From contig CAIWCC010000099.1 in the NCBI GenBank assembly GCA_903911085.1, forward strand, positions 1 through 64,000: a stretch of DNA of 64,000 bases, read 5' to 3'. Below, piece by piece: positions 3,402 to 60,071 of the stretch. Under the pieces are notes generated by a model. It was not told where the DNA came from. It saw nothing but the letters and a program-made list of their open reading frames with translations, and did no database searches. A program made the position numbers and the translations under genes. This DNA is from an uncultured Bacteroidales bacterium (GTDB lineage Bacteria > Bacteroidota > Bacteroidia > Bacteroidales > Paludibacteraceae). Position 1 is the stretch's first letter. Each line of letters begins with the position of its first letter.

Positions 3402-3468
3402 CAAATGTAGTATTTTAAGCCGATACAATACGGGGACAGATTCGGATTTTAAACGGTACTAATTCGTA
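3402..3468 (-). promoter_or_regulatory. Putative HTCS operator and promoter for the small exported protein
   Basis: On the minus strand, the distal half site TACGAATTAGTACC begins at 3468 and the proximal half site TCCGAATCTGTCCCC begins at 3446, 22 bp later. A perfect Bacteroidota -7 box, TACATTTG, begins at 3409, exactly 37 bp after the proximal half site. Four other promoters in the window have the same architecture. Assignment to the HTCS is inference. Confidence 0.65.
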
Positions 3469-3546
3469 TTTATCGTATTTGAATTTTTTATATTAAATAT
3501 ATTTGAATTTTCGAATATCAAAAGTGATGATATATAATTTCAAAAA

Positions 3547-3612
3547 TACGAAAACACCCCTTTTATATACGAATCAACCCCCTTTAATCTTTATTGATTT
3601 TTTATTAATTTG
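3547..3612 (+). promoter_or_regulatory. Putative HTCS operator and promoter for the beta-helix/GH-A unit
   Basis: Direct repeat TACGAAAACACCCC (from 3547) and TACGAATCAACCCCC (from 3568), 21 bp apart. The -7-like box TTAATTTG (one mismatch to TAnnTTTG) begins at 3605, again 37 bp after the proximal half site. It lies divergently from the element at 3402-3468, so one intergenic region holds two copies facing opposite ways. Confidence 0.7.
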
Positions 3613-3658
3613 TACCCTAATATATTATGCGGTTATAAAACAATGCAAAAGTAAATTC

Positions 3659-5494
3659 ATGAGTGTATTTTATAAAATCATTCTCATTTTTCTAATATGC
3701 CTAAACGGAACTTTGCAAGCTGAAACACAAAAGCTTTTTTATATCGATCCTCTTAATGGTGATAATGCAAATGTTGGCAATACGCCTGAAAATCCATTAA
3801 AAGATATTAAGAATATTTCTTCAACACAGTTAGTTCCGGGTTCTAAAATTTTATTCAAAGCCGGTACAATTTACAAAGGAAGTGTTACGCTCGTTGATGT
3901 GAAAGGTACGGCAAACGAACCGGTCACTATTTCAACCTATTGGGATGGAATGCCATCTGCAACATCCGCTGCAACAATCAATGCTGCAGGTTATTTGAGT
4001 GGAATACAACTCGATAATTGCAGCTTTATTGATGTTAGTAAATTAAAAATCACAGCAAATGGTGGCGGATTCGTTATACCTTCGCAAGCAAATGAAAACA
4101 TGAGGTTGGGAGTACTTGTAAGAACCACCAAAATTGGTGAAAACAAAAATATTCACCTTTCTGAACTTACCATTTTTGATATTTTTTATCAGGAGAAAGG
4201 CTATGTGACAAATACACAAGATGATTCAGATCCGCACGGCTATGGAATACGTTTTTTCAACCAAACAACAAACGCCACATTAAAAAATATAGTAATAGAG
4301 AATTGTACAGTCACCAATGTCAGCCATACCGGAATTCGCTTTTCGGGTAAAACGACCAGTTATATTGACAGTATTAACGTAATTTCAAATACTATTACAC
4401 ACGTTGGCGGTCCAGGTATGATGGTAGGTACAGCAAGATACGGACGTTTTGCTTACAATACCGTTGACGATTCAGGTTCAGGCAACGATTCCCGCAACTG
4501 GAAAAGGGGAAGCGGACTTTGGACATGGAGTGCTTATGATATTTTGGTTGAGCGTAACAACTTCAGTAATGCCAAAGGGAAGGGTGATTCATGTGGATCG
4601 CACATCGATTATAACTGCACAAACGTGGTGATGCAATATAATTTTTCGTACAACAATGCCGGTGGATTTATTGAGGTTTTGGGCAATAATTTCAATTGCA
4701 GCTATAGGTACAATATCAGTGTAAACGATGGCTGGCGGGTAAAAGGCGTGAATGGTGCAGACCAGGAAGGTAAAACCATTATGCTTAGCGGTTTTAGCAG
4801 TGGCAAAAGCAAAGGACCATATTTCACCTACATTTACAACAACACCATCTTTGTGAAATCGTCAATGATTGCAAAATATTCGTTCGAAAACACCGCACAA
4901 GGAATACTGATAGCAAACAATATTTTTTGTGTAACTGGGGATTCACGGTCTGTATTGGGCGATCAGACCAAAGCTGCAACTCAAGTAAAAGTTGACGGAA
5001 GCGATGTATTTTTCAAGAATAACCTTTTTCTGAATGCAAAAAACTGGCCTGAAATAGAACGGATTAAAGATGCTGCACCATTTTACGGAAATCCATTTTT
5101 TCCAAATTCGGGAGGATTAAATCTAACTGATTATATCCCAAAAAATGTGAGTTTGATAAAAGGAAAAGGCATTGTCATTCCGCAACTTCCGGGAGATACA
5201 ATTGGGTTGAAGATTGGGTTGAAAGTTGAGTCAGACATTTTAGGAAAGCCCGTTGGCAGTTTGCCCGACATGGGAGCAATCTCTGTCGATTCAATTCCTG
5301 AAAATGCTCCAAATGAGTATACTACAGCAAAATTTATTTCGCATGGAGAGGAATTTTTCTTTACCTATAATGGTGCAGCAACACTCACGCTTTACGCTCT
5401 AAACGGACAAATAATTCAAACCAAAAGATTTGTTGGTTCTGTCACATTTACCTGTCCAACAGGAATTTATATTATCAATATCAAAAAAAACTAA
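3659..5494 (+). CDS. Secreted right-handed beta-helix protein with T9SS CTD
   Basis: 611 aa. I chose ATG 3659 because it opens a proper signal peptide (MSVFYKIILIFLICLNGTLQ); the upstream extension of the frame lies over the promoter. Residues of about 27-540 form a right-handed parallel beta-helix with a YIDPLNGDN opening. A conserved core includes RGSGLWTWS, GSHIDYNC.NVVMQYN and GWRVKGVNGA. The end (from about 545) is a T9SS type A CTD. Paralogues are at 41067-42761 and 42817-45318. Beta-helix folds occur in polysaccharide lyases and in glycosidase families such as GH110, GH120 and GH141 (the last includes a fucosidase). The family here is not identified, so a specific reaction is not claimed. 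It lies 40 bp before the next gene and probably forms a two-gene unit with it. Confidence 0.85.
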   Translation: MSVFYKIILIFLICLNGTLQAETQKLFYIDPLNGDNANVGNTPENPLKDIKNISSTQLVPGSKILFKAGTIYKGSVTLVDVKGTANEPVTISTYWDGMPSATSAATINAAGYLSGIQLDNCSFIDVSKLKITANGGGFVIPSQANENMRLGVLVRTTKIGENKNIHLSELTIFDIFYQEKGYVTNTQDDSDPHGYGIRFFNQTTNATLKNIVIENCTVTNVSHTGIRFSGKTTSYIDSINVISNTITHVGGPGMMVGTARYGRFAYNTVDDSGSGNDSRNWKRGSGLWTWSAYDILVERNNFSNAKGKGDSCGSHIDYNCTNVVMQYNFSYNNAGGFIEVLGNNFNCSYRYNISVNDGWRVKGVNGADQEGKTIMLSGFSSGKSKGPYFTYIYNNTIFVKSSMIAKYSFENTAQGILIANNIFCVTGDSRSVLGDQTKAATQVKVDGSDVFFKNNLFLNAKNWPEIERIKDAAPFYGNPFFPNSGGLNLTDYIPKNVSLIKGKGIVIPQLPGDTIGLKIGLKVESDILGKPVGSLPDMGAISVDSIPENAPNEYTTAKFISHGEEFFFTYNGAATLTLYALNGQIIQTKRFVGSVTFTCPTGIYIINIKKN

Positions 5495-5534
5495 AACAGA
5501 TATTCGCAAACATATTTTCAAAAAATGCATTACA

Positions 5535-7817
5535 ATGAATAAACTGACTCTATTTACCCGAATCATATTCATAACTCTTTTCTCGTCTATTTCTATTGGC
5601 TTAAAAGCCCAGGAAATTAGCCCGTATCTTTTAGGGAACAATGCGTGGCTGGACACCTCAATACTAAATGATTTGTGGGACGATATGGCTTTGGCCGGTT
5701 TTCAAACCATTCGTATCGGTGGTGCTGGCGCTGAAGGATATTCGGCAACCAGTGCTAAATATCTAACACTTTTAAATGGAATACAATTGACAGGTGCACA
5801 GCCGATTGTGCAAGTCCCACGTTACTACACCACACAACAAGTAAAGGATTTATACACGAAAATAAATATTACCAATGGCAAAAACGTAAAGTTGTGGAGT
5901 ATTGGTAACGAACCCGACCATGCCAACAGACCAAGTCCGCCTGACTCGGTTTGCCGTTATATCCGTAGAATTTCATCAGCCCTTAAATCGATGAATCCGG
6001 ATATTAAAATTTTAGGTCCGGATTTAGCCAGTTTTAATACCACCACTCTCGACCGTTATATGGGAGGCGATTTGGATATTTCGGGAGCTGATGCTAATGG
6101 TAATTATTATCTTGATGTTTTTACATGGCACAGGTATATGTTTGTAAAACCTAATGGATTAGAAAGTTACGTCAATCAGTTCTACAAAAGAGCGGATATT
6201 GTCAATGTAAATCGTCCTGCTGGTAAAAAGCTGTCATGGGGACTGCCGGAATTTAACACTTCGTACGATAACAATAAAAACACTTTCGGACCCGATCAAT
6301 TGGTTTGGTCGTTTGCTGCCGGGCAATTTATTGCTGAAACATACGAAGTTGGGATGCGGCGTGGTGCAACTGTAATGAACGTCTGGAGTATGCTCGAAGG
6401 AAGTTCAAACAGGGCAAATACTGATTTAAGTATTTTTGATACAGATTTGAAAGGTCGTTCGAGCTATTATCACAGTCTGATGTTAGGTCAGAATATGAAA
6501 AAAAATTATGCAACCTCCACCGTCAATATCGATAGCGTTACTATAACTGGTATGAAGGATGAAACCGGAATTGCAGTGATGATTATGAACAAAAGCAAAC
6601 TAAATGGCTATGATTATACCTTGAAATTAAACACAAGTGTGATTAGCCCGGCAAGTACATTGAACATCAATGTGAATGCAGGAGTAACCGGTACAAATCA
6701 GCAATTATCGGGTTTTATACCATCAGCCGCCACTCAAATGTTATCGTTTGATGCAACCGGCACATTGATAAAACGCTACATTTATACAGCAAATGATGCT
6801 TATGTACGTAGAGGCCCGATAATTCAAACTGTATTTTGCAATAATCCGCCTTCCATCGATATTATTCCAAAGCAAATTAAAACTATCGAAAAAGGATTAT
6901 TTAGCGTGAATTTGAGTGGAATAACCGATGGCGATAAATGTTCGCAAGGCGTAACAGTATCGGCTGTTTCTAGCAATCCTGATATCGTTTCGGTGAATGC
7001 CGTAAACTACACTTCCTGCAGCAAAACCGGGACATTGGATGTATTGCCAAAAGCCGATGGAGAAGCAACAATTACAGTTACTGTTACGGAAATGCCTCAC
7101 AGCTGCTCGCCACTTACAACGACTACATCCTTTGTAGTTAGAGGTTATAATCCCATAACTATTCCGGGCAAAGTGGAAGCTGAAAATTATATTGACATGA
7201 CAGGTATTCAAACACAAACAACAACAACTGATACAAATGGCGGACTGAATGTGGGATATATTGATCAATACGATTGGATGAATTACGGCGTAAGAGTTGA
7301 AAAAACAGGCACTTATGATGTTAACTTCCGATTAGCCAGTTTTCCGACAACCGGACAAGGAGCTTTTGAATTAAAAAACGGTGGAACAACACTCGCAACA
7401 GTAAGTGTAACAAATACAGGTGGTTGGCAAACATGGAATACGCAGACAGCAAAAGTGAATCTCACAGCCGGTGATCAGATTCTGCGCATTAATATTACTG
7501 CGAGTGGGTTAAACCTGAACTGGATTGATTTTGTGGAGACAAGTACTGCAATATCAGATATTACAGACCCACAAGACAATTTCAGTGTCTATCAAAATGC
7601 GAACGATATAGTTCTTGATTTTGGTAATTCAAAATTGGTTGAAGATGGATCTGATTTATACATCGTAAATATGGCTGGACAAGTTGTTTATACAAAGAAA
7701 ATTGATTCATTTAAAAACAAGAGAACAATTGAAAAAAGTAAACTAAAGTCAGGTATGTATATTGTAAATTATAAATCAACAACTAGAAATTTCAAAGAAA
7801 AATTTATTGTGTATTAA
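5535..7817 (+). CDS. Clan GH-A-like glycoside hydrolase with CBM6 and T9SS CTD
   Basis: 760 aa from ATG 5535, with signal peptide ending near IGLKAQ. The catalytic domain (about 27-430) has two hallmarks of a retaining (beta/alpha)8 clan GH-A enzyme: WSIGNEPDH with candidate acid/base E126 and WGLPEFNTS with candidate nucleophile E239. The family is uncertain: GH39-, GH30-, GH51- and GH86-like enzymes all share this pattern. A short Ig-like or cadherin-like domain (about 440-535) follows. Next is a CBM6 (about 540-668: VEAENY, QYDWMNYGV, LNWIDFVE), then a CTD from about 685. CBM6 modules are common on enzymes that attack marine and plant cell-wall glycans. It is a surface or released endo- or exo-enzyme, co-transcribed with the beta-helix gene. 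Confidence 0.8.
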   Translation: MNKLTLFTRIIFITLFSSISIGLKAQEISPYLLGNNAWLDTSILNDLWDDMALAGFQTIRIGGAGAEGYSATSAKYLTLLNGIQLTGAQPIVQVPRYYTTQQVKDLYTKINITNGKNVKLWSIGNEPDHANRPSPPDSVCRYIRRISSALKSMNPDIKILGPDLASFNTTTLDRYMGGDLDISGADANGNYYLDVFTWHRYMFVKPNGLESYVNQFYKRADIVNVNRPAGKKLSWGLPEFNTSYDNNKNTFGPDQLVWSFAAGQFIAETYEVGMRRGATVMNVWSMLEGSSNRANTDLSIFDTDLKGRSSYYHSLMLGQNMKKNYATSTVNIDSVTITGMKDETGIAVMIMNKSKLNGYDYTLKLNTSVISPASTLNINVNAGVTGTNQQLSGFIPSAATQMLSFDATGTLIKRYIYTANDAYVRRGPIIQTVFCNNPPSIDIIPKQIKTIEKGLFSVNLSGITDGDKCSQGVTVSAVSSNPDIVSVNAVNYTSCSKTGTLDVLPKADGEATITVTVTEMPHSCSPLTTTTSFVVRGYNPITIPGKVEAENYIDMTGIQTQTTTTDTNGGLNVGYIDQYDWMNYGVRVEKTGTYDVNFRLASFPTTGQGAFELKNGGTTLATVSVTNTGGWQTWNTQTAKVNLTAGDQILRINITASGLNLNWIDFVETSTAISDITDPQDNFSVYQNANDIVLDFGNSKLVEDGSDLYIVNMAGQVVYTKKIDSFKNKRTIEKSKLKSGMYIVNYKSTTRNFKEKFIVY

Positions 7818-7843
7818 AATTTAGCTATTCATAAGGCTGGTAT

Positions 7844-7867
7844 AAAACTATTCTCGACTAGTTTTTT
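7844..7867 (+). terminator. Probable terminator after the GH-A/CBM6 gene
   Basis: AAAACTA (7844-7850) pairs with TAGTTTT (7859-7865) across an 8-nt loop and is followed by more T. The stem is short and AT-rich, so this is moderate evidence only. Its position, 27 bp after the stop codon and before the HTCS promoter, is right. Confidence 0.5.
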
Positions 7868-7870
7868 ATT

Positions 7871-7904
7871 TTTGCTATAAATCTCAAAAAAATATGTAAG
7901 TTTG
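7871..7904 (+). promoter_or_regulatory. Standard promoter of the HTCS gene
   Basis: A -33-type TTTG at 7871-7874 and a perfect -7 box TAAGTTTG at 7897-7904, separated by 22 bp (slightly long). No copy of the TACGAA/CCCCC operator is found here. The regulator therefore seems to be made constitutively rather than controlled through its own element. The leader of about 160 nt to ATG 8069 shows no recognisable riboswitch. Confidence 0.6.
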
Positions 7905-8068
7905 CATTCTAATATTTTAAAAAGAGATTAGATATAATGATTATTCTACTGAATTGAGTTAATCCGTTGATAATAAATAGAAAACCAATTGATTGTTTTT
8001 TGTTTAGTTTTGGAAACGAAATTTAATAGCAAATTATTTACATTTATACAATTGAAAAAAAATTGAGA

Positions 8069-11000
8069 ATGAAACAAATCGCACTACTATTTTTATTTGT
8101 TCTTCTGGTATTTCAAGCAAAAGCAAACATTTATTCCCCCACATTTAAAAATATAAACCTTGAAAACGGTTTGTCTAATAGCACTGTACGTAGTATAACC
8201 AAAGATGCTGATGGATTTATGTGGTTTGGCACTTATGATGGTTTGTGCAGATACGATGGAATAAACATGAAGGTTTTTCGTAAAATATCAAACGACTCCA
8301 CTTCGATTAATCACAATCATATTTCATACTTGTTTTGCGACTCAAAGAAGCAATTATATGTTGGCACCCGCAAAGGTTTAAATTTATACATTCCTAAAGA
8401 CGAAACCTTTAAACCTGTTCAGTTTCATGAATTTGACACTCATATTTTACGTAATTCGACAAGTGAAATAAATATTATTGTTGAAGATAATAAAAAAAAC
8501 TTGTTTGTAGGAACATTGGGAAATGGACTGTTGAAATTTAATGATACAACCAACGAATTTGAACAGATTAAAATTATTGACAATAAGTATAAATTGCCAA
8601 TACAAACCATTGCCGTAGCACCCAACAACGAATTGTACTTAGGTATTGGTAATAAGGGAATTGCAAAATACAACACTACTAATGGCAAAGTCGTTTTTAT
8701 AAACCAAGCTATTAAAGAATTTCATAGCATTTTGTACAACAATGACATTTTATATATTGGCACAGCAAAAGGGCTTGTTACTCTTAACCTTAAAACAAAT
8801 AAAATTAGTCAATTTGAAAATATTCCACAACTCAAAAGTATCATACATTTTTTGAAATTAGATATAAATAAAGTTTTGTGGATTGGCACCGAAACTAATG
8901 GAATTGTGCTTATTGATACCAAAAACAATGCTATGCAGTTCATATCGTCGGGATACCAAACTTCACTTTTAACAAGTGTAGGAATTTATTGTTTGTTCAA
9001 AGACGATAACAATATAAGTTGGATTGGAACCATGCGTGGTGGTGTTGAAATGTGGGATCCGAAACAAAATCAATTGTTTTCAAGAAGGAAAACAGAAAAT
9101 ACTACTCCAGCTGCCAATATGATTACCAGTTTTTTGGAAGTAAGCCCAAGTGTTTTGTGGATTGGCACAGATGGTGGTGGTTTGCAACAATTTAATATTG
9201 CCAAAGATAAATTTGAAGAAAATTCGATTCTTAACAAAATAAATAATATTGCAGGTAATGCAGTCATATCAATGGTTAAGGATAAGTTTGATAATGTGTG
9301 GTTTGCCACTTATGGAAATGGATTAATTTGTTATAACTTAAAATCAAGAAAAATATCGAAGATTAGTACTCAGAATTCCATTCTAAAATCGAATTATATT
9401 TGGTCACTTTACATTGATAAAGAAAGCAATTTGTGGATAGGCGGTATAACTAATGGCGGTTTGTTTCGGTACAACTATGAAAAACAGCACATTGAACTTA
9501 TCAATCTTAAAATTGACAATGCATTAACTATTAAAGAAACCAAAAGCCAAAAGATAATTATTGGAATTCGGAAGGGGTTGGTTGTGTATGATCCTGCTGC
9601 TAATACATCCTTTTTGATAAAAACTGATGTTGTGGTACGTTCCATTTGTGAAGATAAAAACAAAACAATTTGGATTGGTACTCAAGGGAATGGACTGATG
9701 ATTTTAGATTTGAAAACTAAAATATTGAAATTAGTAGACAATAATCTGAAATATTTAAAGCAAAGTTCAATTATGTCAATAATTGAAGATGAGAATAAGA
9801 ATCTATGGATAAGTACTACAAATGGACTTTATCGATTTAATTATACTACCAATTCTCTGACTTCCTATGATAAAAAAGATGGATTACAAAGTATTCAATT
9901 TAATTACTCTTCTGCGCTAAAAACTCAAGACAAAAAGTTGTTTTTTGGTGGTATTAACGGCTTTACTTTTTTCGATCCAAAAACGATTAAAAAACCTGTA
10001 GAAAAGTGTCCTTTGCATATTATTGACTTTTCGATATTTAATAATTCTATTTTTTCAAACAAATTACAGAATGAAAAAATAATTGATCAACTTTCAAAGA
10101 AAGATATAGTTTTAAAACACGATGATGCTTTTTTTAGGCTTGATTTTACTGCCATTTCTTTCGACAATCCCGAAAAAACACAGTACATGTACAAGCTCGA
10201 AGGATTGGATAAAGAATGGAATTATGCGGGTACAAACCATAATGCTAATTTTTCGGGATTGGAACAGGGCGATTATGTTTTCAAAGTTAAATATTCAACG
10301 CAGCCAGGTCATTGGAGTAACGAGGAGCTTGAAATAAATATTAAAGTTTTACCACCATTTTATCAAACATGGTGGGCGTATATGTTTTATTTCCTTGTAA
10401 TTTTAGGAATTATTTACATAGTTTTTCTTGTGCAAAGCAGACAGAATAAACTAAAGCAAGACTTGTTGATGGCTGATTTAAAAGAAGAACAAGTGAAACA
10501 GGTACAGCAAATTAGGGAGCAATTCTTTATCAATATTTCGCACGAACTGCGTACACCATTAACGCTGATTATCCCGCCCATGAAAGATAGTTTGTCGTCT
10601 GAACCTTTTGTGCCGTTGAACAGAAACGAATTGCAAAGCATTTTCAACAATGCCAATCGTTTACTTTTACTTATCAATAAATTGCTTTTATTCCGGAAAA
10701 CTGAAATGGGGAAAAATCAACTTAAAGTATCTCAAAGTGATATTGTTGTATTTACGAATCGGGTTTTTGAAAACTTTTCACAAATTGCTCGAAAGAAAAA
10801 TATCCAATTTATTTTTCAAGGACCTCAAAATCCTATTCAATTTTGGTTTGATAACGAAAAAATGGAGATTATTCTATATAATTTGTTATCAAATGCATTC
10901 AAATACACACCTGATGGTGGAAAAATTGAATTAAAAATTAAAAAGATAAATGATCGTCTAATAATAAATGTTTTAGATAGTGGTTGCGGAATTGCAAAAA

Positions 11001-12079
11001 CTGATTTAAATAATATATTTACTCGATTCTATTCATCAAATAAATTTGGCGGAATTGGAATAGGTTTATCCTTAGTAAAAACCTATGTTGAGTTGATGAA
11101 TGGTACTTTACTAATTGAAAGTGAGTTAAATAAAGGCACCAATTTTACTGTCAATTTCCAAATGGGCGCAGAATATAGAGCTGAAGAAATTGACAATGAA
11201 AATATAACAACCGATGTATTATCCGAAGATATTACTGAAATTGTGGGATTAGATACAGAAATTCAAATTTATCAAACAATTGATGAAAGTGCCGAAACCG
11301 AAAATTCTAATTTGCTGAAAATACTCATTGTGGATGATAATCTTGAGATACTAAGTTACATAAACAAGATTTTATTGTCAACAGGTTTGTACGAAGTTAA
11401 TCAAGCAACGGATGGAAAAACAGCTTTGAAAATGGCTAAAAGTTTCTACCCCGATATCATTATTAGTGATGTTCACATGCCTATTATGAATGGGTTAGAA
11501 CTGTGCCGTGCTATCAAAGAAGATGTAGAAACGAATCATATTTATTTTATTTTAATTACTGCCGATATATTTGAAACCACCGAAAATAATGGACTTGGAT
11601 TGGGAGCAGATGAATTTATCACCAAACCATTCGACAAAACAAAGCTTTTAAACAAAATCAAAACAGTTTTTAATTACCAACAAAGAATACGAAAATACTT
11701 TGAAAACACTTTCATTTTAGGTCAAAAAACCACGAATACAATAAGTGTTAATACTAGTTTTATCGACGAATGTGTAGCTATAATTAAAGCTAACTACAAT
11801 TCAGATAGTTTTAGTCCACTTTTATTTTCCGAAAAAATGAATATGAGTCAATCTGCTTTGTACAAGAAAATTAAGCTTTGTACAGGAAAATCAATTAACG
11901 AATTGATACGTACCGTAAAAATGTCAATTGCAGCAGAATTAATTTTGGAAGGGAAACTAAGCATTACACAAATTGGAGCTGAAATTGGAATTTACGATTC
12001 TAAATACTTCCGCGATTGTTTTAAAAAGCAATTCGGAGTCTCGCCTAGTAAATATGGTAAGCCGGAAGTGGATAATTAG
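8069..12079 (+). CDS. Hybrid two-component system sensor-regulator (HTCS)
   Basis: 1336 aa from ATG 8069 (a TTG two codons upstream was not used); signal peptide MKQIALLFLFVLLVFQAKA. The periplasmic part (about 25-690) is built from two-component-regulator propeller repeats (recurrent WIGT..GL), followed by a Y_Y_Y domain (about 700-760). One membrane helix follows (about 769-789, WWAYMFYFLVILGIIYIVFL). The cytoplasmic part has a HisKA domain with H825 in NISHELRTPLT and a HATPase domain (LLSNAFKY, DSGCGI, GIGLSL). A receiver follows, with D1134 in ISDVHMP and Lys in ITKPF, and then an AraC-type HTH (last 85 or so residues). HTCS proteins sense an oligosaccharide in the periplasm and activate their PUL. 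Its placement here, and SusC lacking a signalling domain, make it the likely regulator of this locus. Confidence 0.97.
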   Translation: MKQIALLFLFVLLVFQAKANIYSPTFKNINLENGLSNSTVRSITKDADGFMWFGTYDGLCRYDGINMKVFRKISNDSTSINHNHISYLFCDSKKQLYVGTRKGLNLYIPKDETFKPVQFHEFDTHILRNSTSEINIIVEDNKKNLFVGTLGNGLLKFNDTTNEFEQIKIIDNKYKLPIQTIAVAPNNELYLGIGNKGIAKYNTTNGKVVFINQAIKEFHSILYNNDILYIGTAKGLVTLNLKTNKISQFENIPQLKSIIHFLKLDINKVLWIGTETNGIVLIDTKNNAMQFISSGYQTSLLTSVGIYCLFKDDNNISWIGTMRGGVEMWDPKQNQLFSRRKTENTTPAANMITSFLEVSPSVLWIGTDGGGLQQFNIAKDKFEENSILNKINNIAGNAVISMVKDKFDNVWFATYGNGLICYNLKSRKISKISTQNSILKSNYIWSLYIDKESNLWIGGITNGGLFRYNYEKQHIELINLKIDNALTIKETKSQKIIIGIRKGLVVYDPAANTSFLIKTDVVVRSICEDKNKTIWIGTQGNGLMILDLKTKILKLVDNNLKYLKQSSIMSIIEDENKNLWISTTNGLYRFNYTTNSLTSYDKKDGLQSIQFNYSSALKTQDKKLFFGGINGFTFFDPKTIKKPVEKCPLHIIDFSIFNNSIFSNKLQNEKIIDQLSKKDIVLKHDDAFFRLDFTAISFDNPEKTQYMYKLEGLDKEWNYAGTNHNANFSGLEQGDYVFKVKYSTQPGHWSNEELEINIKVLPPFYQTWWAYMFYFLVILGIIYIVFLVQSRQNKLKQDLLMADLKEEQVKQVQQIREQFFINISHELRTPLTLIIPPMKDSLSSEPFVPLNRNELQSIFNNANRLLLLINKLLLFRKTEMGKNQLKVSQSDIVVFTNRVFENFSQIARKKNIQFIFQGPQNPIQFWFDNEKMEIILYNLLSNAFKYTPDGGKIELKIKKINDRLIINVLDSGCGIAKTDLNNIFTRFYSSNKFGGIGIGLSLVKTYVELMNGTLLIESELNKGTNFTVNFQMGAEYRAEEIDNENITTDVLSEDITEIVGLDTEIQIYQTIDESAETENSNLLKILIVDDNLEILSYINKILLSTGLYEVNQATDGKTALKMAKSFYPDIIISDVHMPIMNGLELCRAIKEDVETNHIYFILITADIFETTENNGLGLGADEFITKPFDKTKLLNKIKTVFNYQQRIRKYFENTFILGQKTTNTISVNTSFIDECVAIIKANYNSDSFSPLLFSEKMNMSQSALYKKIKLCTGKSINELIRTVKMSIAAELILEGKLSITQIGAEIGIYDSKYFRDCFKKQFGVSPSKYGKPEVDN

Positions 12080-12085
12080 CAAAAG

Positions 12086-12151
12086 CACAAAATGACCTAC
12101 ATATTATACGAATTTACCCCCTTCAAATCTATTTAAATTGCGTTACTTTTG
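12086..12151 (+). promoter_or_regulatory. Putative HTCS operator and promoter for the first giant protein
   Basis: The proximal half site TACGAATTTACCCCC begins at 12107 and the perfect -7 box TACTTTTG at 12144, 37 bp later. The distal half site at 12086 is degenerate (CACAAAATGACC) but sits at the expected 21-bp distance. The element begins 6 bp after the HTCS stop codon, so the HTCS and downstream genes are probably separate transcripts. Confidence 0.65.
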
Positions 12152-12212
12152 TCACTGATAGTTTTTTTTATAAAGACTTTTCTTTTGTTACATTTTACTC
12201 AATTAAAATACG

Positions 12213-16311: not shown

Positions 16312-16378
16312 TACGAAAACGTCCCCCGATAATTACGAATTTACCACCTATTTAATAATAGGATTTATGTTTACTTTG
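16312..16378 (+). promoter_or_regulatory. Putative HTCS operator and promoter for the second giant protein and SusCD
   Basis: Distal half site TACGAAAACGTCCCCC begins at 16312 and proximal half site TACGAATTTACCACC at 16334, 22 bp later. The -7-like TTACTTTG (one mismatch) begins at 16371, 37 bp after the proximal site. No promoter was seen between the downstream genes up to 27277, so this element probably drives the giant protein, SusC, SusD and the two binding proteins. Confidence 0.7.
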
Positions 16379-24240: not shown

Positions 24241-24250
24241 AATTTGGAAG

Positions 24251-49516: not shown

Positions 49517-49519
49517 TCC

Positions 49520-52002: not shown

Positions 52003-53352
52003 TCACATTCTGAACGGTGTAACAGGATAATTATCAGTTGAGAACAAATTCGGTTCAGCGTAGTTTTTCCAAAAATAGCGGACTTTAACTGGCACCAATA
52101 CTTCGTCGGCCCACACCACAACTGTTGTACCTTCGATACGAGCTTTGGCTGGATAATATACATCATTTGCGCCGGCAATTTCGAAAAGTTCTGGTGAATC
52201 ACCTACAGAAATTTTGAATCCTTTTTCGGCAAAATTGAAAAAAACACGCATTGCATTTTCTTCTACTGTAGCGGTGCGGAATTGTGGACTATTGAATGTT
52301 GCCACTTTTCCATAAACGCGCGCCAAAGCCATATCACACAATCGTTCACCTACAGGTTTCTTGTTGAGTGGGTGTATATTAGCTTCGTCGCCCACATCAA
52401 CTGTGGTAACAAAACCAGCATTTGGGAGTGTTTCAGCAATTTGTTGTTGTATTTCTCTGAACTCACGCCATTCGCCTTGATAGTTTGGTAATTGAACCAG
52501 ATAAAATGGTAGCATAGGATTTTTAAAATCGTTACGCCAACCTGTAACCATGGCATTTATTATAGCGGAATAGGTTTCTTTACGTGCCACATTGTTTTCA
52601 CCTTGGTACCAAAGCATTCCGGAAACTTTATAGGGTAAAATAGGGTTAATCATACCCATGTATAAACAACCAGGAATACGCTCGGTAGTAGGTGGTGTAA
52701 ATGCATTACGTACACTTGCAGGCAATGTTGCAAAAACTGAAGGATTTGTCCATTCTTCGGCTGCTGTACCACCCTGATAAGCTCCAATCATACCAACTGG
52801 AACATTCAGAGATAGTTGCAACTTTCTTGCGAAAAAATAACCAACCATACTTACGGCTGAAATTTTATCAATAGAATCGCCATGAGCCCAAATTCCGTTT
52901 AGTGTATCCAATGGTACTGACGAATTGGTAACTTTTGTTCTAAAAAAACGCACATTGGCATTTTTGTAAGTAGTGGCATTATTTACTCCAAGCGGTAAAT
53001 TCATGTTAGACTGACCCGAACAAAACCAAACTTCTCCAATTAGTACTTCGTGAATTACAGAATCGTTAACATGAATGGTATAAGGTGTAAAGCTGCCTTC
53101 TGGAGTGGTGAGGTAAGCTATAAATTTTCCATTTGTATCAGCTACCGTTTTTACGGGTGCATTATTCCAACTTCCAGTTATTGTTACTTGTGTTCCTGGA
53201 ACTGTTTTTCCCCAAATTGGTGTCTCGGTTTCTCGCTGTAATACCATACCGTCGCTGAAAAGTTTCGATAGTTCTATTGTTTGTGCCGAAACTGATAAAC
53301 ATGTTGCTAATAAACATAAAAGCAACATTTTAGTTGATTTGTGATTCTTCAT
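52003..53352 (-). CDS. Sialate O-acetylesterase-like SGNH esterase
   Basis: 449 aa from ATG 53352, signal peptide ending at VSAQ (longer in-frame starts give no signal peptide). It shows the family architecture: an N-terminal beta-sandwich (SDGMVLQRETETPIWG). The SGNH core follows, with VWFCSGQSNM (catalytic S115), the oxyanion region MLWYQGENN, and NIHPLNKKPVGERL (catalytic H326, preceded by D321). These esterases (SASA/CE20-type) remove O-acetyl groups from sialic acid or from other glycans. It heads the minus-strand run; a -7 box lies at 53429-53436. In this locus it may deacetylate the fucan or glycoprotein glycans to let the fucosidases act. Confidence 0.9.
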   Translation of the reverse strand: MKNHKSTKMLLLCLLATCLSVSAQTIELSKLFSDGMVLQRETETPIWGKTVPGTQVTITGSWNNAPVKTVADTNGKFIAYLTTPEGSFTPYTIHVNDSVIHEVLIGEVWFCSGQSNMNLPLGVNNATTYKNANVRFFRTKVTNSSVPLDTLNGIWAHGDSIDKISAVSMVGYFFARKLQLSLNVPVGMIGAYQGGTAAEEWTNPSVFATLPASVRNAFTPPTTERIPGCLYMGMINPILPYKVSGMLWYQGENNVARKETYSAIINAMVTGWRNDFKNPMLPFYLVQLPNYQGEWREFREIQQQIAETLPNAGFVTTVDVGDEANIHPLNKKPVGERLCDMALARVYGKVATFNSPQFRTATVEENAMRVFFNFAEKGFKISVGDSPELFEIAGANDVYYPAKARIEGTTVVVWADEVLVPVKVRYFWKNYAEPNLFSTDNYPVTPFRM

Positions 53353-53428
53353 TTGTGTTGTTAATTTTTCTTTTTTCTTTGTTTGAAAAAAGAAGTGATA
53401 ATAATAGTTGTTTTGAATCGATATTTTA

Positions 53429-53436
53429 CAAAGATA
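53429..53436 (-). promoter_or_regulatory. Putative -7 box of the esterase unit
   Basis: TATCTTTG on the minus strand matches TAnnTTTG exactly, about 77 bp before ATG 53352. No -33 TTTG at the standard distance and no TACGAA/CCCCC repeat are seen upstream, so its control seems to differ from the five operator-bearing promoters. The 312-bp gap between 53353 and 53664 holds only this box and the terminator at 53589-53618. Confidence 0.4.
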
Positions 53437-53588
53437 GATGTTAGTTGTTTTTTTTAGGTTCAATCATTATTCAAAAAAGTCCAGTTAATGACCAAATATC
53501 CTAAATTACTACTGACAAGTTAGTTTTGCTTTTTTCTATTGAGTTTTTACTGCAAAATAATTGGTTTTTAATACTTTAATTTCTGAAT

Positions 53589-53664: not shown

Positions 53665-55638
53665 CTAATTCTGATTAACAACTTTCTTTGTCCAATTTTT
53701 GGAGCCAGCTTCAATTTGAATAATATACAAACCATCAATTAAAAGCGGTATTTCCATTGAGCTGTTTTGTGCTACTTTATTAGCTACCAATCGTCCTAAT
53801 GAATTATAAACTCGAACTAAGGATTGAACAGATAAATTATTTAACTTCACAATTTTATTTGCAAATGAAATAACAGGTTCGTTCAATTGATTATTTGATG
53901 AAATAATGCTAGTGGTGATTGTAGGAGTGGCTTTAACTGGAATTTTTCTGGTCATGCTTGTGCTGCTAATAATCAGTGTATCAATAATTTCAGTAGTGGT
54001 GAAAGGTGCAGTGAATTTTACAGAGATACTTGTTCCCGCAGTTGCATCAACAAGTGAAACAGCAGCATTGGAAACTAAACTAAAATTTACTCCGTTTTTA
54101 AGCGACACAGACAAGTCACCAGCCAAATTGCAAGCTTGAATTGGAGTGTTGATGGTTAGTTCACTGCCTTGAACAACACTTCCAAAATTTATGGTTTTGC
54201 TTGAAGGTACGTTTAGTAAATCGGGTGTTAGTGAGTTGTTTACAACAATACTATCAATTAAAATATTGTTCAAACTTACTTTTAGTCCAGTAAAGGTCAA
54301 TTTACTGTTTGCGGTTCCTTTAAATGTTGGTGATGTAATTTTTACTAAAGCAGTGGTTGCTTGTTGGCCTTCACAAATTAATTCAGTACCATCCAAATAT
54401 ACTTTATAACGACCATCGGTATTTCCAGCTAAATTTCTTGTTTTGAAAGAAAATTTGAAAGGCTGACTTAAATCAATAGGCGGTGTAGTTAAAAATGCCG
54501 AATCGGAGGAAGTGTTTCCAATACAAACTGTACCAAGATTTGGTGACGATGCTTTAAATGAATAAATTTTATTTCCAGTCCAGCCAAGAACTTGTGAAAA
54601 TGCTGCATCTTCTGGGTTTAATGCAACTAAACCCGCCAAAGTAGTATTTGATGACGCAGCATCATAATTCGAAAAATCTTCGTGAAATAAATCACAAGTA
54701 GCTGTAAGGGGAATATCTACCGATGTTGCATTAACACTTTCGATATGCAAAGTGGTTGTCCGAGCTGACAATGAAGCTGTAGCATTTGCCGAAACTAAAA
54801 CTGTTTGTGATCCACCATTTAAAGTTGCTGCATCAATAGATGCTTTGTCAACTGAAAAATCAGATGCATTTCCACCAACAAATGAGAAATTGGTGGCATC
54901 CGTCATACTTGCTCCAGTTACAACAAAAGAAGTTGAAGCTGAATGACCTTTTGAAGTTTTGATTGTTAGACTTGTTTTGTCAGTTCCAAAAGCTGGACTA
55001 AATGAAACTGTACCATAAACTTCTATTTTGTCAATTGTAATTATATCTGCTGTGGTAGCTGTAGATGGTCCAAATGCCAAATACTGTGGAGTAGTATTTA
55101 TCACAGCTGGTATTGAAGGAGTCGGCATTTGATAAGTGTTAAATGTAGTAGTTCCAATGTTGCCAGTACTCACATATCCCGTATACATATTTGTTGGATA
55201 AGATGCCCCGTAATTTAATTGAATTTTTCCACTAGTAGTAGTTGTTGCCACACTTCTTTTAAATGTAACATCCACTCTGTTAACCTTAAATCCACTTGTT
55301 GCAGCATCTTTTGTAATAGAAAATTGCACTGCTTTTTTTGCAGCACCAGTATTTGCACTTGTTGACCAATTGCTTGTTAAAAGTGCATCGCCAGAATATG
55401 AGGCTGATATTGCATTTGAAGGTATGTTTCCAACCCCAATTATTATTTCTGAAAAAGTAATACCAGAAGATACACTTGTTGGTTTTGTTTGGTCAGTTCC
55501 AGTTGTAAATTCATACTGACCAAGTAGAATATCAACGGCAAATAATGAAGGTGTAAGAAAAAATGATACTGCAAAAATTACTGAAGTAAGTTGAGCTCTA
55601 AGGCTCAATGATTTGAAAAGCGTAGTTTGTTTTTTCAT
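53665..55638 (-). CDS. Secreted multi-domain adhesin-like protein with T9SS CTD
   Basis: 657 aa, signal peptide ending at PSLFA. A beta-sandwich (about 35-212: ILLGQYEFTTG, TIDKIEVYGTV) is followed by an Ig-like domain (about 218-315). A second sandwich follows (about 317-470: CDLFHEDFSNYD, YKVYLDGTELICEG, NNILIDSIVVNN), then another Ig-like domain (about 475-575) and a CTD. No catalytic motif was recognised. The whole is collinear with the first 590 or so residues of the next gene upstream (55808-59926). A strong terminator between the two genes suggests its own, unidentified promoter. The role is likely binding of the glycan or of a surface. Confidence 0.75.
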   Translation of the reverse strand: MKKQTTLFKSLSLRAQLTSVIFAVSFFLTPSLFAVDILLGQYEFTTGTDQTKPTSVSSGITFSEIIIGVGNIPSNAISASYSGDALLTSNWSTSANTGAAKKAVQFSITKDAATSGFKVNRVDVTFKRSVATTTTSGKIQLNYGASYPTNMYTGYVSTGNIGTTTFNTYQMPTPSIPAVINTTPQYLAFGPSTATTADIITIDKIEVYGTVSFSPAFGTDKTSLTIKTSKGHSASTSFVVTGASMTDATNFSFVGGNASDFSVDKASIDAATLNGGSQTVLVSANATASLSARTTTLHIESVNATSVDIPLTATCDLFHEDFSNYDAASSNTTLAGLVALNPEDAAFSQVLGWTGNKIYSFKASSPNLGTVCIGNTSSDSAFLTTPPIDLSQPFKFSFKTRNLAGNTDGRYKVYLDGTELICEGQQATTALVKITSPTFKGTANSKLTFTGLKVSLNNILIDSIVVNNSLTPDLLNVPSSKTINFGSVVQGSELTINTPIQACNLAGDLSVSLKNGVNFSLVSNAAVSLVDATAGTSISVKFTAPFTTTEIIDTLIISSTSMTRKIPVKATPTITTSIISSNNQLNEPVISFANKIVKLNNLSVQSLVRVYNSLGRLVANKVAQNSSMEIPLLIDGLYIIQIEAGSKNWTKKVVNQN

Positions 55639-55759
55639 GATTTTTTTTTAAAATTTAATATGTTAGTTTTAATATGTTTATAGCTAAATTCAAGTTGTAA
55701 ATGCAATTTTATTGTTTGTCTGTTTGAAATTATTAAGAAATTTTATCTCCCAAAAAATG

Positions 55760-55791
55760 CTCAAAGGTCAGTAAATAACTGACGCTTTGAG
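55760..55791 (-). terminator. Rho-independent terminator after the 1372-aa protein gene
   Basis: CTCAAAGGTCAGT (55760-55772) pairs with ACTGACGCTTTGAG (55778-55791) with one bulged base and a 5-nt loop. On the minus strand a T6 run follows two bases after the stem. It lies 17 bp past the stop codon at 55808. Confidence 0.85.
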
Positions 55792-55807
55792 TTTTTTTTC
55801 AGTTCGA

Positions 55808-58800
55808 CTAAAAAATGATTTTTTTCAGCCAATTCTTTCCACCAGCTTCAATTTTCACCATGTATATGCCTTTTGCTGAGAGATTTATTTCCAATGAAGT
55901 GTTGTTTGACGTTTTGTTAATCACCATGCGTCCAATTGCATCAAATACTCGAACATTTGCTTTTGCAACCAAATTATTAATTGACAGTTTACAGTTGACA
56001 ATTGACAGTTGAGGTGCATTTACATCAGTTTCATTTTCAATTGCAGTTGGAACACGCTGAGCAGTTATAGCAAAGCGTGAATTGTTTGTTCCAGCAGCAG
56101 CTGTAAATGTGTAATTGGAAGTTAATAAATTGGTGACAGTAGCTGGATTTGTTCCATTATCAGTTAACAACAACTTCGACAAACTTGGTGCTTGTGTAGC
56201 ATCAACACTAATAGTAGTAGTTCCAGCTGTTTTGGTATAAAAACCAATAGGAAGATTAACCACATTTGTCATTGGTAAAGCATTATATGAATAATTTACT
56301 CCGCCCAACATGGTATAAACTTGTGGTTTATCGGTTCCAATACCAATCATTTTTTCATAATCCTGACCAATTTCATAAGCTGTACTTTGATTATTATCCA
56401 TTATCAAGTTGGTTTTGTCAATTCCAGTAGAACTTGCAAAATTTATTTGAACCTTATCCGATAAATCTGTATCGACAGTTGTTTTTGCTCCTTGACGACC
56501 TAGATAGTTGAATGAAACTGTGTTTCCACTTCCTATCTGAACAAAATATGCTGCCATTGGTGGAATAGTATAATTTTCATTATTGCTAACGTCGGTATAA
56601 GTAACATTATTTCCATCGATAAATGACATGTGTGTAGCACTAGTTTTTGCTCCATTGCCATTAAAATTACTCAAATAAGGTAACCCAATTAAGTTCCAAC
56701 CATAATTATTACCACCTGCATCGCCAGTGAATGCTGAAACTGGAACGGTACGACCATCTGTTTCTGCATGAAGAACACTCGGAGTTAAAGGGATGGACAA
56801 TTCTACATTATATGTTGCACCTAGAGTTTTCAGACCAAATATATAACCTTTATTAGCTTGAAGAATTGTGCGTTCGGCCAAAGTAGGAGCTACAGCAATG
56901 TGTTTCCAGTTACTGCCTGTACCAAAGTTAGCACGCTTTTGACCATCGTAATACTTAATAAACCAATCGCCACCATCACCTAAAGTACCCAATGAATTAC
57001 CATCCGATTTGGTAATTTCAGCAACTGTTACATCGCATGGGAATGACATAAAATACCATTTCGTGTCATCGATGGTTTTAAACAAGCGCACCGTAGTAGC
57101 ATTAATATCGGCATCAATTTTTGCACTAAAGGTAGATGCATCTTTGCCTGCTTTTAATGTTACTGTTTCAACTGTTATTTGACTATTTACATTTAGTTTT
57201 CCACCAGCATCAACGGTTACACTATTTACTTTTGGTGACGAGTTTACTGTCAATGTACCGTTGTTAGAAACAGTTAAATTAGTTCCTGCATCAACAGCTA
57301 AATCACCCAAATTTTGTGTGGCTGCAACTGGTACAGTGTTTTGTTCTAAAATGGATATTGTACCAACGGCTGGTGTAAAACTATAATTGGTTGCTGATAA
57401 ACCGCTTACAATTGGTGTTATTGTAACGCCCGAAGTTCCGGAAGCTGTAGAATTGGTGAAAGTGCTTGAATAAGAAACCGAGCCGCTAATCACGCCTGCG
57501 CCTTCGCTATTTACAAATCCAGAAGGAGTATAAGTTCCACCAGCAGTTACCGAGGCTACTGCTGTTCCATAAGCCACCGATTGATTTCCTGCGGTGATGG
57601 TTAAAGCTACTTTGGCTATACTAAAAGTATAATCTGCCGATGTTGCCGCATTGTAATTAGTAGTTGCAGTTGCACTTGCCACCACTTTGTAATTTCCAGC
57701 ATTGGTAGGGGCTGTAGCTGATGAATATGCTGCACCATCTGTATTTGTATATAACAATGATGTAGTGCCAACTCCGCCATAAGTAATAGTGGATGGACCT
57801 TGCGCAGCACCAGTGTAAGTAAAGCTTTGAGTTCCCGAAACACTAATTGTAGGAGTGGCTTTTGTTACACCTCCCGAACAAGTAACATCTTTCTGTGTTG
57901 CATTTGTTGAAGTTAAAGTAACAACCTCACCGTTGTAATTTGCTACTGATAAACCTGTTTTCAAACGAACATGAACAGTTGTTGAACCAATTGTTCCAGC
58001 TGCACCAATCACAATTGCCGAACTGCTGAAAGTACTATTATCAGCCGAAACTTCGTAATTGGTTGTGGGTGTAACTGTGATTCCTGCCGACATATCAGCT
58101 CCACTTATTGTGAAGTTCTTACTTGTGGATGGACCAGCGTTATAAGCATAACCAAATTCGGTTAAAGTAGTAGCAGAAGCAGTAATTGTGGGTATACCAA
58201 TTGGAGTTCCTTTCAATGTAATAGTTCTGCTGGTCATACCAGAGCTTGCAATTGTCAATGTTGCGGTGATTTCTGCACCTGGCATAGGCGCTGTAAACGT
58301 AACTGGAATTGTTGTTCCTGCTAATGCTGTAGCTTGTAAGACAGTTGTTCCTGATGGCAAACTGAAATCAGTTCCTGTAACAGATAGCGTCAAATTGTCG
58401 GTTAAGTTACAGGCCTGAATAGGAATATTAATTGTTTGTACTGATCCCTGAGTAAGACTTCCAAAATTAACTATTTTATTTGATGCAAGATTTAGCACAT
58501 CGGGAATTACTGTATTATTTACAACTATGGCATCAAAGAGAATATTATTTGCAGCTATATTTTGACCCGAAAAGGTTAATTTACTGCTTGATGTTCCAAC
58601 AAATGTTGGGGTAGAAACATCAGCTAAAACAGCTGTGTTGTCTAAACCTTCATACATCAATTCTGTACCATCTAAAAATACTTTGTAAGTATTAGCTTGT
58701 GTTCCAGTTAAGTTCCTTGACTTGAAAGCTACCTTAAATGGTTGACTTAAATCAATTACAGGTGTAGTTAAATATGCTAAATCCAAAGCAGTAGAGGCCA

Positions 58801-59926
58801 GACAAACTGTTCCATTATTCGGTGTAGCTGCTTTATATTGATAGAGTTTATGCCCTGCCCAACCAGAAACCAGAGATAATGATACATCGTCTGTGATGGT
58901 TAGCATTGTTCCTAATGTAGTATTACTATTAGCAGTTGCATCATAATTTGAAAAATCTTCGTAAAATAAGTCGCAAGTTGCTGAAATTGGTATATCTAAT
59001 GAGGTTGCTCCAACGCTTTCTAAATGTAAATTAGCTGTTGTTGTTCCAATTGGTAAAGTAGAAGAAGCAGTAACATTTATTGTTGGAGTAGTTCCAGCAT
59101 TTAATGTGGCAGCTGTTATAGAAGAATTATCAATGGAAAAATAAGAAGCACCAGCACCTGTTAATGACACATTAGTTACATTTGTCAGATTCGAACCATT
59201 TATTACCACAGGAGTTGCAAGCGAATGCGTCTTTGAAACTTTCAATGAAATACTTGCTTTGTTGGCTGCAATTGTACCAGCATATGTTACTGTACCAAAG
59301 ACTTCAATTTTATCAATTGTTAGTTGAATTGCTGTATTTGCGGCTGAGGCTCCAATAGCTATATATTGTGCTGTTGCATTACTTACTGAAGGAATTGGAT
59401 TTACTACTGTTACACCCGAAGCTGTATTTTCTGTTAATGGATAAGTTGCAAAGGAAAGTGTACCACAACTTGCATTACTTATTGCGTACGTTTTAGTAGT
59501 TGGATAAGCACTTGTTCCAAAATTTAATTGAATGATACCATTTGTCCCTATTGTTGCAACACTTCTTTTGAAAGTTACATCAACCCGGTTAACATCAAAT
59601 TGACTTGCTCCTGTACCTTTTGTAATTGTAAACTGTACTGTTTTAAAATTTGGAGAAGCAATTCCAGTACCTGTATTCCAGTTACTGGTAACTAAAGCAT
59701 CGCCAGAATATGAAGCGGTTATACCTGATCCAATCATTATATCAGACAGTGTAATGCCTGTAGCGACATTTGTTGCAGTTATTGAACCACCTGTAAACTC
59801 ATACTGTCCAATAAGAACATCCGCTGCAAATAACGAAGGAGAATAAAATAAAAAAAGACACAAAATGATTGTAAGAAGTTTTTCTTTAAGACATAACTTC
59901 AGATAGAAAGTGATTAGTTTTTTCAT
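55808..59926 (-). CDS. Very large secreted adhesin-like protein with MBG repeat and T9SS CTD
   Basis: 1372 aa, signal peptide ending at PSLFA. Residues of about 30-590 repeat the domain plan of the 657-aa neighbour (ADVLIGQYEFTGG, CDLFYEDFSNYD, FKVAFKSRNLTG). Then comes an Ig-like domain (about 590-700: NFTISGADMSAGITV, ATQKDVTCSGG) and MBG-type domains (about 700-870: FTYTGAAQGPSTITYGG, LTITAGNQSVAYGTAV). A long beta-rich region (about 870-1290) and the CTD follow. In-frame copies of a short TTGACAGTT repeat sit just before the CTD (55980-56010). No enzyme motif was found. Its promoter carries the HTCS-type operator (60005-60071), so it is probably induced with the PUL and may bind cells to the substrate. 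Confidence 0.78.
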   Translation of the reverse strand: MKKLITFYLKLCLKEKLLTIILCLFLFYSPSLFAADVLIGQYEFTGGSITATNVATGITLSDIMIGSGITASYSGDALVTSNWNTGTGIASPNFKTVQFTITKGTGASQFDVNRVDVTFKRSVATIGTNGIIQLNFGTSAYPTTKTYAISNASCGTLSFATYPLTENTASGVTVVNPIPSVSNATAQYIAIGASAANTAIQLTIDKIEVFGTVTYAGTIAANKASISLKVSKTHSLATPVVINGSNLTNVTNVSLTGAGASYFSIDNSSITAATLNAGTTPTINVTASSTLPIGTTTANLHLESVGATSLDIPISATCDLFYEDFSNYDATANSNTTLGTMLTITDDVSLSLVSGWAGHKLYQYKAATPNNGTVCLASTALDLAYLTTPVIDLSQPFKVAFKSRNLTGTQANTYKVFLDGTELMYEGLDNTAVLADVSTPTFVGTSSSKLTFSGQNIAANNILFDAIVVNNTVIPDVLNLASNKIVNFGSLTQGSVQTINIPIQACNLTDNLTLSVTGTDFSLPSGTTVLQATALAGTTIPVTFTAPMPGAEITATLTIASSGMTSRTITLKGTPIGIPTITASATTLTEFGYAYNAGPSTSKNFTISGADMSAGITVTPTTNYEVSADNSTFSSSAIVIGAAGTIGSTTVHVRLKTGLSVANYNGEVVTLTSTNATQKDVTCSGGVTKATPTISVSGTQSFTYTGAAQGPSTITYGGVGTTSLLYTNTDGAAYSSATAPTNAGNYKVVASATATTNYNAATSADYTFSIAKVALTITAGNQSVAYGTAVASVTAGGTYTPSGFVNSEGAGVISGSVSYSSTFTNSTASGTSGVTITPIVSGLSATNYSFTPAVGTISILEQNTVPVAATQNLGDLAVDAGTNLTVSNNGTLTVNSSPKVNSVTVDAGGKLNVNSQITVETVTLKAGKDASTFSAKIDADINATTVRLFKTIDDTKWYFMSFPCDVTVAEITKSDGNSLGTLGDGGDWFIKYYDGQKRANFGTGSNWKHIAVAPTLAERTILQANKGYIFGLKTLGATYNVELSIPLTPSVLHAETDGRTVPVSAFTGDAGGNNYGWNLIGLPYLSNFNGNGAKTSATHMSFIDGNNVTYTDVSNNENYTIPPMAAYFVQIGSGNTVSFNYLGRQGAKTTVDTDLSDKVQINFASSTGIDKTNLIMDNNQSTAYEIGQDYEKMIGIGTDKPQVYTMLGGVNYSYNALPMTNVVNLPIGFYTKTAGTTTISVDATQAPSLSKLLLTDNGTNPATVTNLLTSNYTFTAAAGTNNSRFAITAQRVPTAIENETDVNAPQLSIVNCKLSINNLVAKANVRVFDAIGRMVINKTSNNTSLEINLSAKGIYMVKIEAGGKNWLKKIIF

Positions 59927-60004
59927 ACTTTTGTGATTTTATTGATTTAAATAAATAGATTGTTCAACTGCTTTTTTTTTACGAAAAAACAGAATTTGAT
60001 TTTG

Positions 60005-60071
60005 CAAATATATTATAAGAATCTAGCATCGATAGGGGGTAGATTCATAAATTAGAAGGGGCAAAATCGTA
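60005..60071 (-). promoter_or_regulatory. Putative HTCS operator and promoter for the 1372-aa protein
   Basis: On the minus strand, distal half site TACGATTTTGCCCC begins at 60071 and proximal half site TATGAATCTACCCCC at 60049, 22 bp later. A perfect -7 box TATATTTG begins at 60012, 37 bp after the proximal site. It lies about 48 kb from the HTCS gene and extends the presumed regulon to the right part of the window. The rest of the 59927-60224 gap shows nothing else I can support. Confidence 0.7.

Follow-up and report, generated by a model that had tools for sequence, protein, structure and literature searches.

Hybrid two-component systems (HTCSs) decide which complex sugars Bacteroidota digest, and those of their DNA targets that we found in print belong to gut Bacteroides. 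According to the main text of Ravcheev et al. 2013 (PMC3878776), motifs have been predicted for 16 of the 36 HTCSs of B. thetaiotaomicron; they are direct repeats averaging 21 bp, with one site per monomer and the dimer on one face of the DNA, they are tied to susCD and enzyme operons, and their similarity tracks that of the helix-turn-helix (HTH) domains. In two further papers, cited here from part of their content, receiver-HTH fragments of BT4124 and BT4663 were gel-shifted on the bt4114 and bt4662 promoters (PMC11253607), and BT0366 on its own promoters (PMC5061871), where a supplementary figure legend refers to the predicted BT0366 site and -7 boxes on one sequence, from which their register could be read. 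Most HTCSs are described as having an S/C-H-I-P receiver contact (PMC11253607), and the Bacteroidota housekeeping promoter as combining a -7 box, TAnnTTTG, with a -33 element, TTTG (PMC7366714). Here we analyse a window comprising the first 64 kb of the 146-kb contig CAIWCC010000099.1 (C99) of an uncultured Bacteroidales bacterium, in which five promoter elements, along with a sixth beyond the end of the window, are probably operators of a single HTCS, encoded at 8069-12079 and hereafter called HTCS1, and would act by the mechanism proposed below.

Each of the five elements consists of two direct half-sites and a downstream 8-bp box (Table 1). As an earlier note on this DNA had claimed, the half-sites lie 21 or 22 bp apart (22, 21, 21, 22 and 22 bp, with both strands read), the box begins 37 bp after the start of the proximal half-site in 5/5 elements, and the box matches TAnnTTTG perfectly in three cases and with one mismatch in two; all of these counts proved exact. 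The half-site is best written as TACGAA[T]-N3/4-CCCC, and its proximal copy is conserved better than the distal one, the weakest distal copy being that of the 12086 element (CACAAAATGACCTAC), in which 9 of the 15 letters are as in its proximal half. The 3402(-) and 3547(+) elements form a divergent pair. The sixth element, C99:76435-76501(-), is situated 12.4 kb past the window end, before a SusC gene (L012:13121-16318) and a SusD gene (11275-13101), and its half-sites are 22 bp apart. A -7-like box identified by its sequence, with no more than one mismatch to TAnnTTTG, is present in all six promoters, and none of the six has a TTTG near -33, between the proximal half-site and the box. The -33 motif was not observed in Flavobacterium johnsoniae either, according to the part of PMC7366714 seen, so that its absence alone is weak evidence.

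The register between half-site and box stands out clearly from the background. A box with at most one mismatch occurs at an offset of 37 in 5/5 elements, and no other offset in the range 15-74 has one in more than a single element. Such boxes occupy 94 of the 6,243 intergenic strand positions; at this density, boxes in 5/5 elements would be expected at 4e-8 of 51 offsets. When weight matrices were built with one element left out and run over the 146,365-bp contig, the left-out elements scored 28.6, 42.1, 27.6, 36.5 and 37.6 bits, and the best non-member scored 13.6-16.9 bits, where neither the sixth site nor any reading displaced by one or two bases was treated as a non-member; in 4/5 runs, the best non-member was the 60005 element itself, read one half-site out of step. 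As the left-out elements score so far above the best non-member, chance is an unlikely cause of the pattern.

The earlier note had proposed a whole-genome search with the half-site pair, with the possibility in mind that the motif would occur at random or before many unrelated genes. A six-element profile, derived from sequence only, was run over the 6,251,348-base genome and gave six matches at 41.5-52.6 bits, all six being its own training set, followed by a seventh at 15.3 bits (E 0.14), among the best 150 of 4,607 loose first-look candidates that were scored. All six strong matches are on C99, between 3.4 and 76.5 kb, with the HTCS1 gene at 8-12 kb; the half-site pair is thus not scattered, but is confined to six sites in one contig region, and does not behave as a random motif or one that precedes unrelated genes. 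Weak sites may have been missed, since model searches score only part of the loose first look. Both the pattern search and the five-element matrix had picked up the sixth element before it was included in any model, which, together with the lack of any other high-scoring site, provides independent support. The six elements should nevertheless not be taken for six independent events, because the 16312(+) and 76435(-) elements are near-copies of each other, bases past the box included, and the proteins encoded behind the 12086 and 16312 elements (12213-16271 and 16432-21075) are 65% identical paralogues.

Several candidates were set aside in the course of these searches. Pattern matches on C69 (L015, C69:14526), C200 (L016, C200:9460) and C206 (L017, C206:65431) are repeat copies with no box in register; they sit in a dispersed repeat of about 500 bp, of which the C69 copy is 82% and 88% identical to the others, and their likeness to the operator appears to be due to chance. 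The site at C210:14628 is a single half-site without a partner, and that at C222:27706, a pattern match with three mismatches, was not counted. In 100 relatives, the six-sequence model gave four outside matches at 18-21 bits (G011, G005, G079 and G083), none of which was counted; the G011 match overlaps an inverted repeat that lies between a pair of convergent genes, and the G005 match, in the neighbourhood of an HTCS and of a fragment resembling SusC, includes one good half-site, its box being 35 bp away.

HTCS1 has all of the domains of an HTCS in Pfam (Reg_prop, 6e-37; Y_Y_Y, 2e-17; HisKA, 3e-7; HATPase_c, 5e-25; Response_reg, 4e-24; HTH_18, 8e-15). Its SHELRTP histidine box is at residue 826, and D57 of the receiver stretch is invariant in 13 sequences; we take this histidine and D57 to be the phospho-acceptors. 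An AlphaFold2 model of the product of 11300-12079 (mean predicted local distance difference test score, pLDDT, 80) places helices at residues 184-195, with SQSALYKKIK from the second letter of the helix, and at residues 234-245, with SKYFRDCFKK, and these are presumably the two recognition helices of the AraC-family HTH. In calling HTCS1 the only regulator of its kind, the earlier note is right as regards the window, judging from a Pfam scan of 30 of its 33 open reading frames (ORFs) of at least 120 amino acids (the remaining three are small antisense ORFs), but not as regards the contig, which carries a second HTCS gene at C99:122772-126812. The genome as a whole encodes 21 HTCSs, counted as matches spanning the whole response-regulator part among 46 at E <= 1e-8, and the nearest paralogues of HTCS1 among them are at 37%.

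An orthologue of HTCS1 was found in another genome, G451, on contig JAUZOU010000246.1 of a metagenome-assembled genome (MAG). It matches HTCS1 at 59.5% over 872 amino acids, at 68% over 249 amino acids of the response-regulator part and at 71% over 91 residues of the DNA-binding domain, and the first recognition helix is identical in the two proteins. A scan of one genome per species (84,980 species), which detects close relatives only, yielded 36 loci, one of them close (68%) and the next at 40%, and neither a set of 393 genomes from the order (E 1e-62) nor one of 393 G451 relatives (E 1e-60) yielded a second orthologue. G451 also has the element: it stands back to back with a weaker, probable second copy, the pair being flanked by a SusC frame and by a 1,171-codon frame, which is read stop to stop and is ended by the contig end, and these are followed by SusD and a GH95 homologue. 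The homologies (30% for the SusC frame, 30% for the 1,171-codon frame to both 12213-16271 and 16432-21075, and 44% for GH95) match these genes to window genes that lie behind HTCS1 operators. The first element, unseen by the model, is one site present at the overlapping ends of contigs C119 and C54, and its two copies gave 22.5 and 18.5 bits (E 4e-4 and 0.008). The susC-facing element was accepted by eye for its position, its spacing coming out at 21 or 22 according to where the weak half is placed; in an ungapped alignment the box occupies the same columns in both elements, and in a model that includes them they reach 42.8 and 37.0 bits by construction. In this one genome, with separate contigs and with one of the two elements strong only after modelling, the element is kept before homologous genes where an orthologous HTCS exists.

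We extended the search to 395 genomes of the phylum, the window's own included, with an eight-sequence model (E <= 0.001, 13 candidates scored per genome), and obtained seven matches in six other genomes from three genera. In the 18-19-kb stretches surrounding them, an HTCS was present in 6/7 cases, 0.3-5.6 kb from the element. The whole model was matched by four of the seven elements, and TTTG was found 41 bp past the proximal start in L198, L199, L200 and L203, and one base later in L201. The first helix reads S-H-S-[SN]-L-Y-K-K-I-K in all six HTCSs near an element, and S-Q-S-A-L-Y-K-K-I-K in HTCS1 and its orthologue, while the combined form, S-[QH]-S-x-L-Y-K-K-I-K, is seen in none of the 20 other HTCSs of the window's genome and in none of 11 related HTCSs elsewhere (L125-L135). 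The stretches around these 11 HTCSs, three of them short (3.8, 5.8 and 12.5 kb), gave no element; the second helix of the HTCSs reads F-R-D-C-F-K-K-Q-F-G in 10/11 cases, in part because this peptide was a search pattern. When 39 response-regulator parts were placed in a tree, all eight operator-linked HTCSs fell into a single clade (support 96/83), with one change required, against 7.5 in shuffles. The chances appear to us evenly balanced that HTCSs with the S-[QH]-S-x-L-Y-K-K-I-K helix read TACGAA-C-run half-sites across families and orders of the class, in a fixed register with TTTG 41 bp past the proximal start, and that HTCSs outside the clade have different half-sites in a comparable register. 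If this is true generally, HTCS target promoters would be predictable from the recognition helix and the geometry in genome sequence, and interleaved regulons, such as the two on C99 that are considered below, would be separable gene by gene.

In the mechanism that we propose, the periplasmic propeller of HTCS1 would sense a glycan fragment, probably rich in fucose and sulfate, and the kinase would then phosphorylate the fused receiver. Two AraC-type domains would bind side by side on one DNA face, one on each of the half-sites spaced by two turns, with the TACGAA and C-run parts of each half-site, about one helical turn apart, each taken up by one HTH. The proximal half-site ends at the -33 position, so that the bound HTCS may replace the -33 contact; with a -7 box present and no TTTG between proximal half-site and box, RNA polymerase probably needs contact with the bound HTCS. 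The regulon would include genes to the left and right of the HTCS gene within the window, together with another susCD operon a short way beyond it. The suggestion of the earlier note, that the elements suit an AraC-type dimer activating RNA polymerase and form a candidate regulon of HTCS1, is strengthened as to the assignment by the orthologue with the same first helix and by the clade; binding and activation would be expected from it.

A number of observations weigh against this assignment. Upstream of the HTCS1 gene itself, no TACGAA-type half-site was found within 260 bases, though -7 boxes are present. In G451, the susC-facing element scored only 9.9 bits (E 4.1) with the naive model, and would not stand alone; the HTCS and the operators are on separate contigs, their association consisting in the same genome only, and no element was detected on the 4,989-bp HTCS contig. 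Among the matches in the phylum, that in L204 has no HTCS in its 19 kb, with a 1,081-amino-acid ORF behind the element, and neither L202 nor L204 has a clear TTTG at the expected place; moreover, since one genus contributes four near-copies, the eight operator-linked HTCSs count as about four lineages. Finally, the S/C-H-I-P contact motif is replaced in the HTCS1 receiver, and in that of its orthologue, by NHIY; the receiver of the second HTCS reads SHTP.

This last departure bears on the possibility that HTCS1 does bind the operators, but mainly represses or binds constitutively, since departures from S/C-H-I-P have been tied to phosphorylation-independent binding, and one repressing HTCS is cited, in the part of PMC11253607 available. 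We regard this as unlikely, as a site at the -33 place in promoters without a -33 element is an activator-dependent layout, and the distal half-site lies further upstream, covering neither the -7 box nor the start.

The operators might instead be read by another regulator (the second HTCS, some further member of the 21, or an AraC-type protein that is not linked to them), with HTCS1 as a bystander; the number of HTCSs in the genome, and the presence of one more on the same contig, speak for this explanation, which we nonetheless consider quite improbable. HTCS1 is alone among the 21 in having the recognition helix of the operator-linked HTCSs, and a distinct motif, TTTGR placed 39 bp before the box, is found near the gene of the second HTCS; the matrix of that motif, run over the contig, gives no HTCS1 element above 12 bits. 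This second motif was first spotted by eye and then counted: ten perfect -7 boxes precede genes at 81-131 kb, and six of them have TTTG[AG] 25-50 bp upstream, always at exactly 39 bp, with a half-site like TTTG[AG] 21 bp further upstream in those six promoters. Searching the genome with the six-site model, in which the best 150 of 8,722 first-look candidates were scored, revealed one extra site above 18.0 bits, 53429(-), with 26.1 bits (E 6e-5). It reads TTTGGTCATTAA...TTTTGAATAATG...TATCTTTG, with the box 39 bp past the proximal start, and leads into ORF 52003-53463, which has an ATG at 53352; the gene of the second HTCS is outside the window, 69 kb away. By matrix, the 53429 site scores 34.9 bits, against 14.5 for the next site on the contig, and it reached 30-37 bits, unseen, in all six leave-one-out runs. 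The same runs recovered the sites at 86138, 96572 and 118280 clearly, gave a tie between 113265 and the best other site, and failed for 115069 and 122596, and because of these mixed results the second motif is less sure than that of HTCS1. The minus-strand genes below 53.4 kb are perhaps under the second HTCS, flanked by HTCS1 operators, in which case the two regulons would interleave.

The idea that the elements are repeat or duplicated-promoter copies rather than a maintained site, to which the near-copy pair 16312/76435 and the paralogous genes behind 12086 and 16312 lend some colour, is very improbable, as, that pair aside, half-sites and box are alike while the spacers differ, G451 and three more genera share the design, and the leave-one-out and cross-genome results already disfavour it.

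A more general rule, that HTCS loci have 21-bp repeats upstream of the -7 box, was discarded as not specific. A lag of 21 beat all 200 shuffles in 78 boxes of 20 other HTCS stretches (z 4.2), and the same outcome was obtained with 93 boxes from 24 control stretches of this genome (L014-L017 and L166-L185; z 3.4), some of which may contain other sugar clusters. The claim of a fixed register is therefore confined to HTCS1, the second HTCS and an HTCS locus on C141 with three promoters. The excess in the controls suggests that other regulators may use the same spacing. At the C141 locus (L087, C141:22000-41999), three promoters near another HTCS have TACTATT-type half-sites 21 bp apart and one box register, and this is perhaps a third operator type.

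Table 1. Operators, regulator and associated genes in the 64-kb window (coordinates are window positions; half-sites are given in reading direction)
Feature	Positions	Strand	Distal half-site	Proximal half-site	Spacing (bp)	Box	Genes faced, or basis
Predicted HTCS1 operator and promoter	3402-3468	-	3468-3454	3446-3432	22	TACATTTG 3409-3402	140-amino-acid ORF 2920-3342; GH95 gene 449-2815
Predicted HTCS1 operator and promoter	3547-3612	+	3547-3561	3568-3582	21	TTAATTTG 3605-3612	3662-5494 (beta-helix); 5430-7817 (CBM6)
HTCS1, hybrid two-component system, proposed reader of the operators	8069-12079	+					Pfam architecture, SHELRTP box
HTCS1 receiver and AraC-type DNA-binding part	11300-12079	+					
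Predicted HTCS1 operator and promoter	12086-12151	+	12086-12100 (degenerate)	12107-12121	21	TACTTTTG 12144-12151	12213-16271
Predicted HTCS1 operator and promoter	16312-16378	+	16312-16326	16334-16348	22	TTACTTTG 16371-16378	16432-21075; susC 21127-24240; susD 24227-25873; then further genes
SusC/SusD pair downstream of the 16312 operator	21127-25873	+					Pfam
Probable operator of the second HTCS	53429-53496	-	53496-53483	53475-53462	21	TATCTTTG 53436-53429	
Predicted HTCS1 operator and promoter	60005-60071	-	60071-60057	60049-60035	22	TATATTTG 60012-60005	55808-59926; perhaps also 53665-55638

The genes of the window encode GH95-type and Alpha_L_fucos (GH29-type) proteins, sulfatases, right-handed beta-helix proteins, SusC/SusD, CBM and a SASA-type esterase, and many of the products are secreted, with a type IX sorting domain. 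These gene families point to a substrate glycan that is probably rich in fucose and sulfate. No solved structure was found for three large secreted proteins (12213-16271, 16432-21075 and 55808-59926), and the only domains found in them were sorting, Ig-like and MBG domains. The first two, each behind an HTCS1 operator and with a homologue behind a like element in G451, are candidates for a new glycan-active family. Separately, the region 37749-37948, upstream of ORF 36645-37748, consists of coding-like sequence with a break, as in a worn-out gene.

In comparison with known systems, the statement in the earlier note that few HTCS operators have been defined this closely was overstated, given that 16 of 36 motifs of the same design, as the main text of PMC3878776 has it, were already predicted in 2013. 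The HTCS1 operators resemble those B. thetaiotaomicron regulons in the direct repeat, the spacing of about 21 bp and the association with susCD and enzyme operons, and differ in the organism, the fucosidase- and sulfatase-rich cluster, the TACGAA plus C-run half-site and the distance to the -7 box measured here; the main text of that paper gives distances from site to site rather than to the promoter, and the terms "tttg" and "promoter element" are absent from it. The comparison of half-sites is with that main text only, and ours may equal one of its 16 motifs. With BT4124, BT4663 and BT0366, as partly covered by PMC11253607 and PMC5061871, HTCS1 shares the protein class and the kind of target, while being a different HTCS and departing from S/C-H-I-P. 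With the housekeeping promoter, as given in part of PMC7366714, the -7 box is shared, and the -33 TTTG is replaced by the proximal half-site. The portions of PMC12125979 and PMC6874557 consulted contain no HTCS operator, and neither a fixed distance from HTCS site to -7 box nor a rule linking helix to half-site was found in the literature searched, which included few subscription journals and no supplements. What this locus adds is a regulon in a fucosidase- and sulfatase-rich cluster that is delimited to six promoters at base-level register, with a regulator assigned by cross-genome evidence. We thus view it as a well-supported example of the known HTCS operator design, its most novel part being the link between recognition helix and half-site, a concrete rule that could be tested by a few gel shifts.

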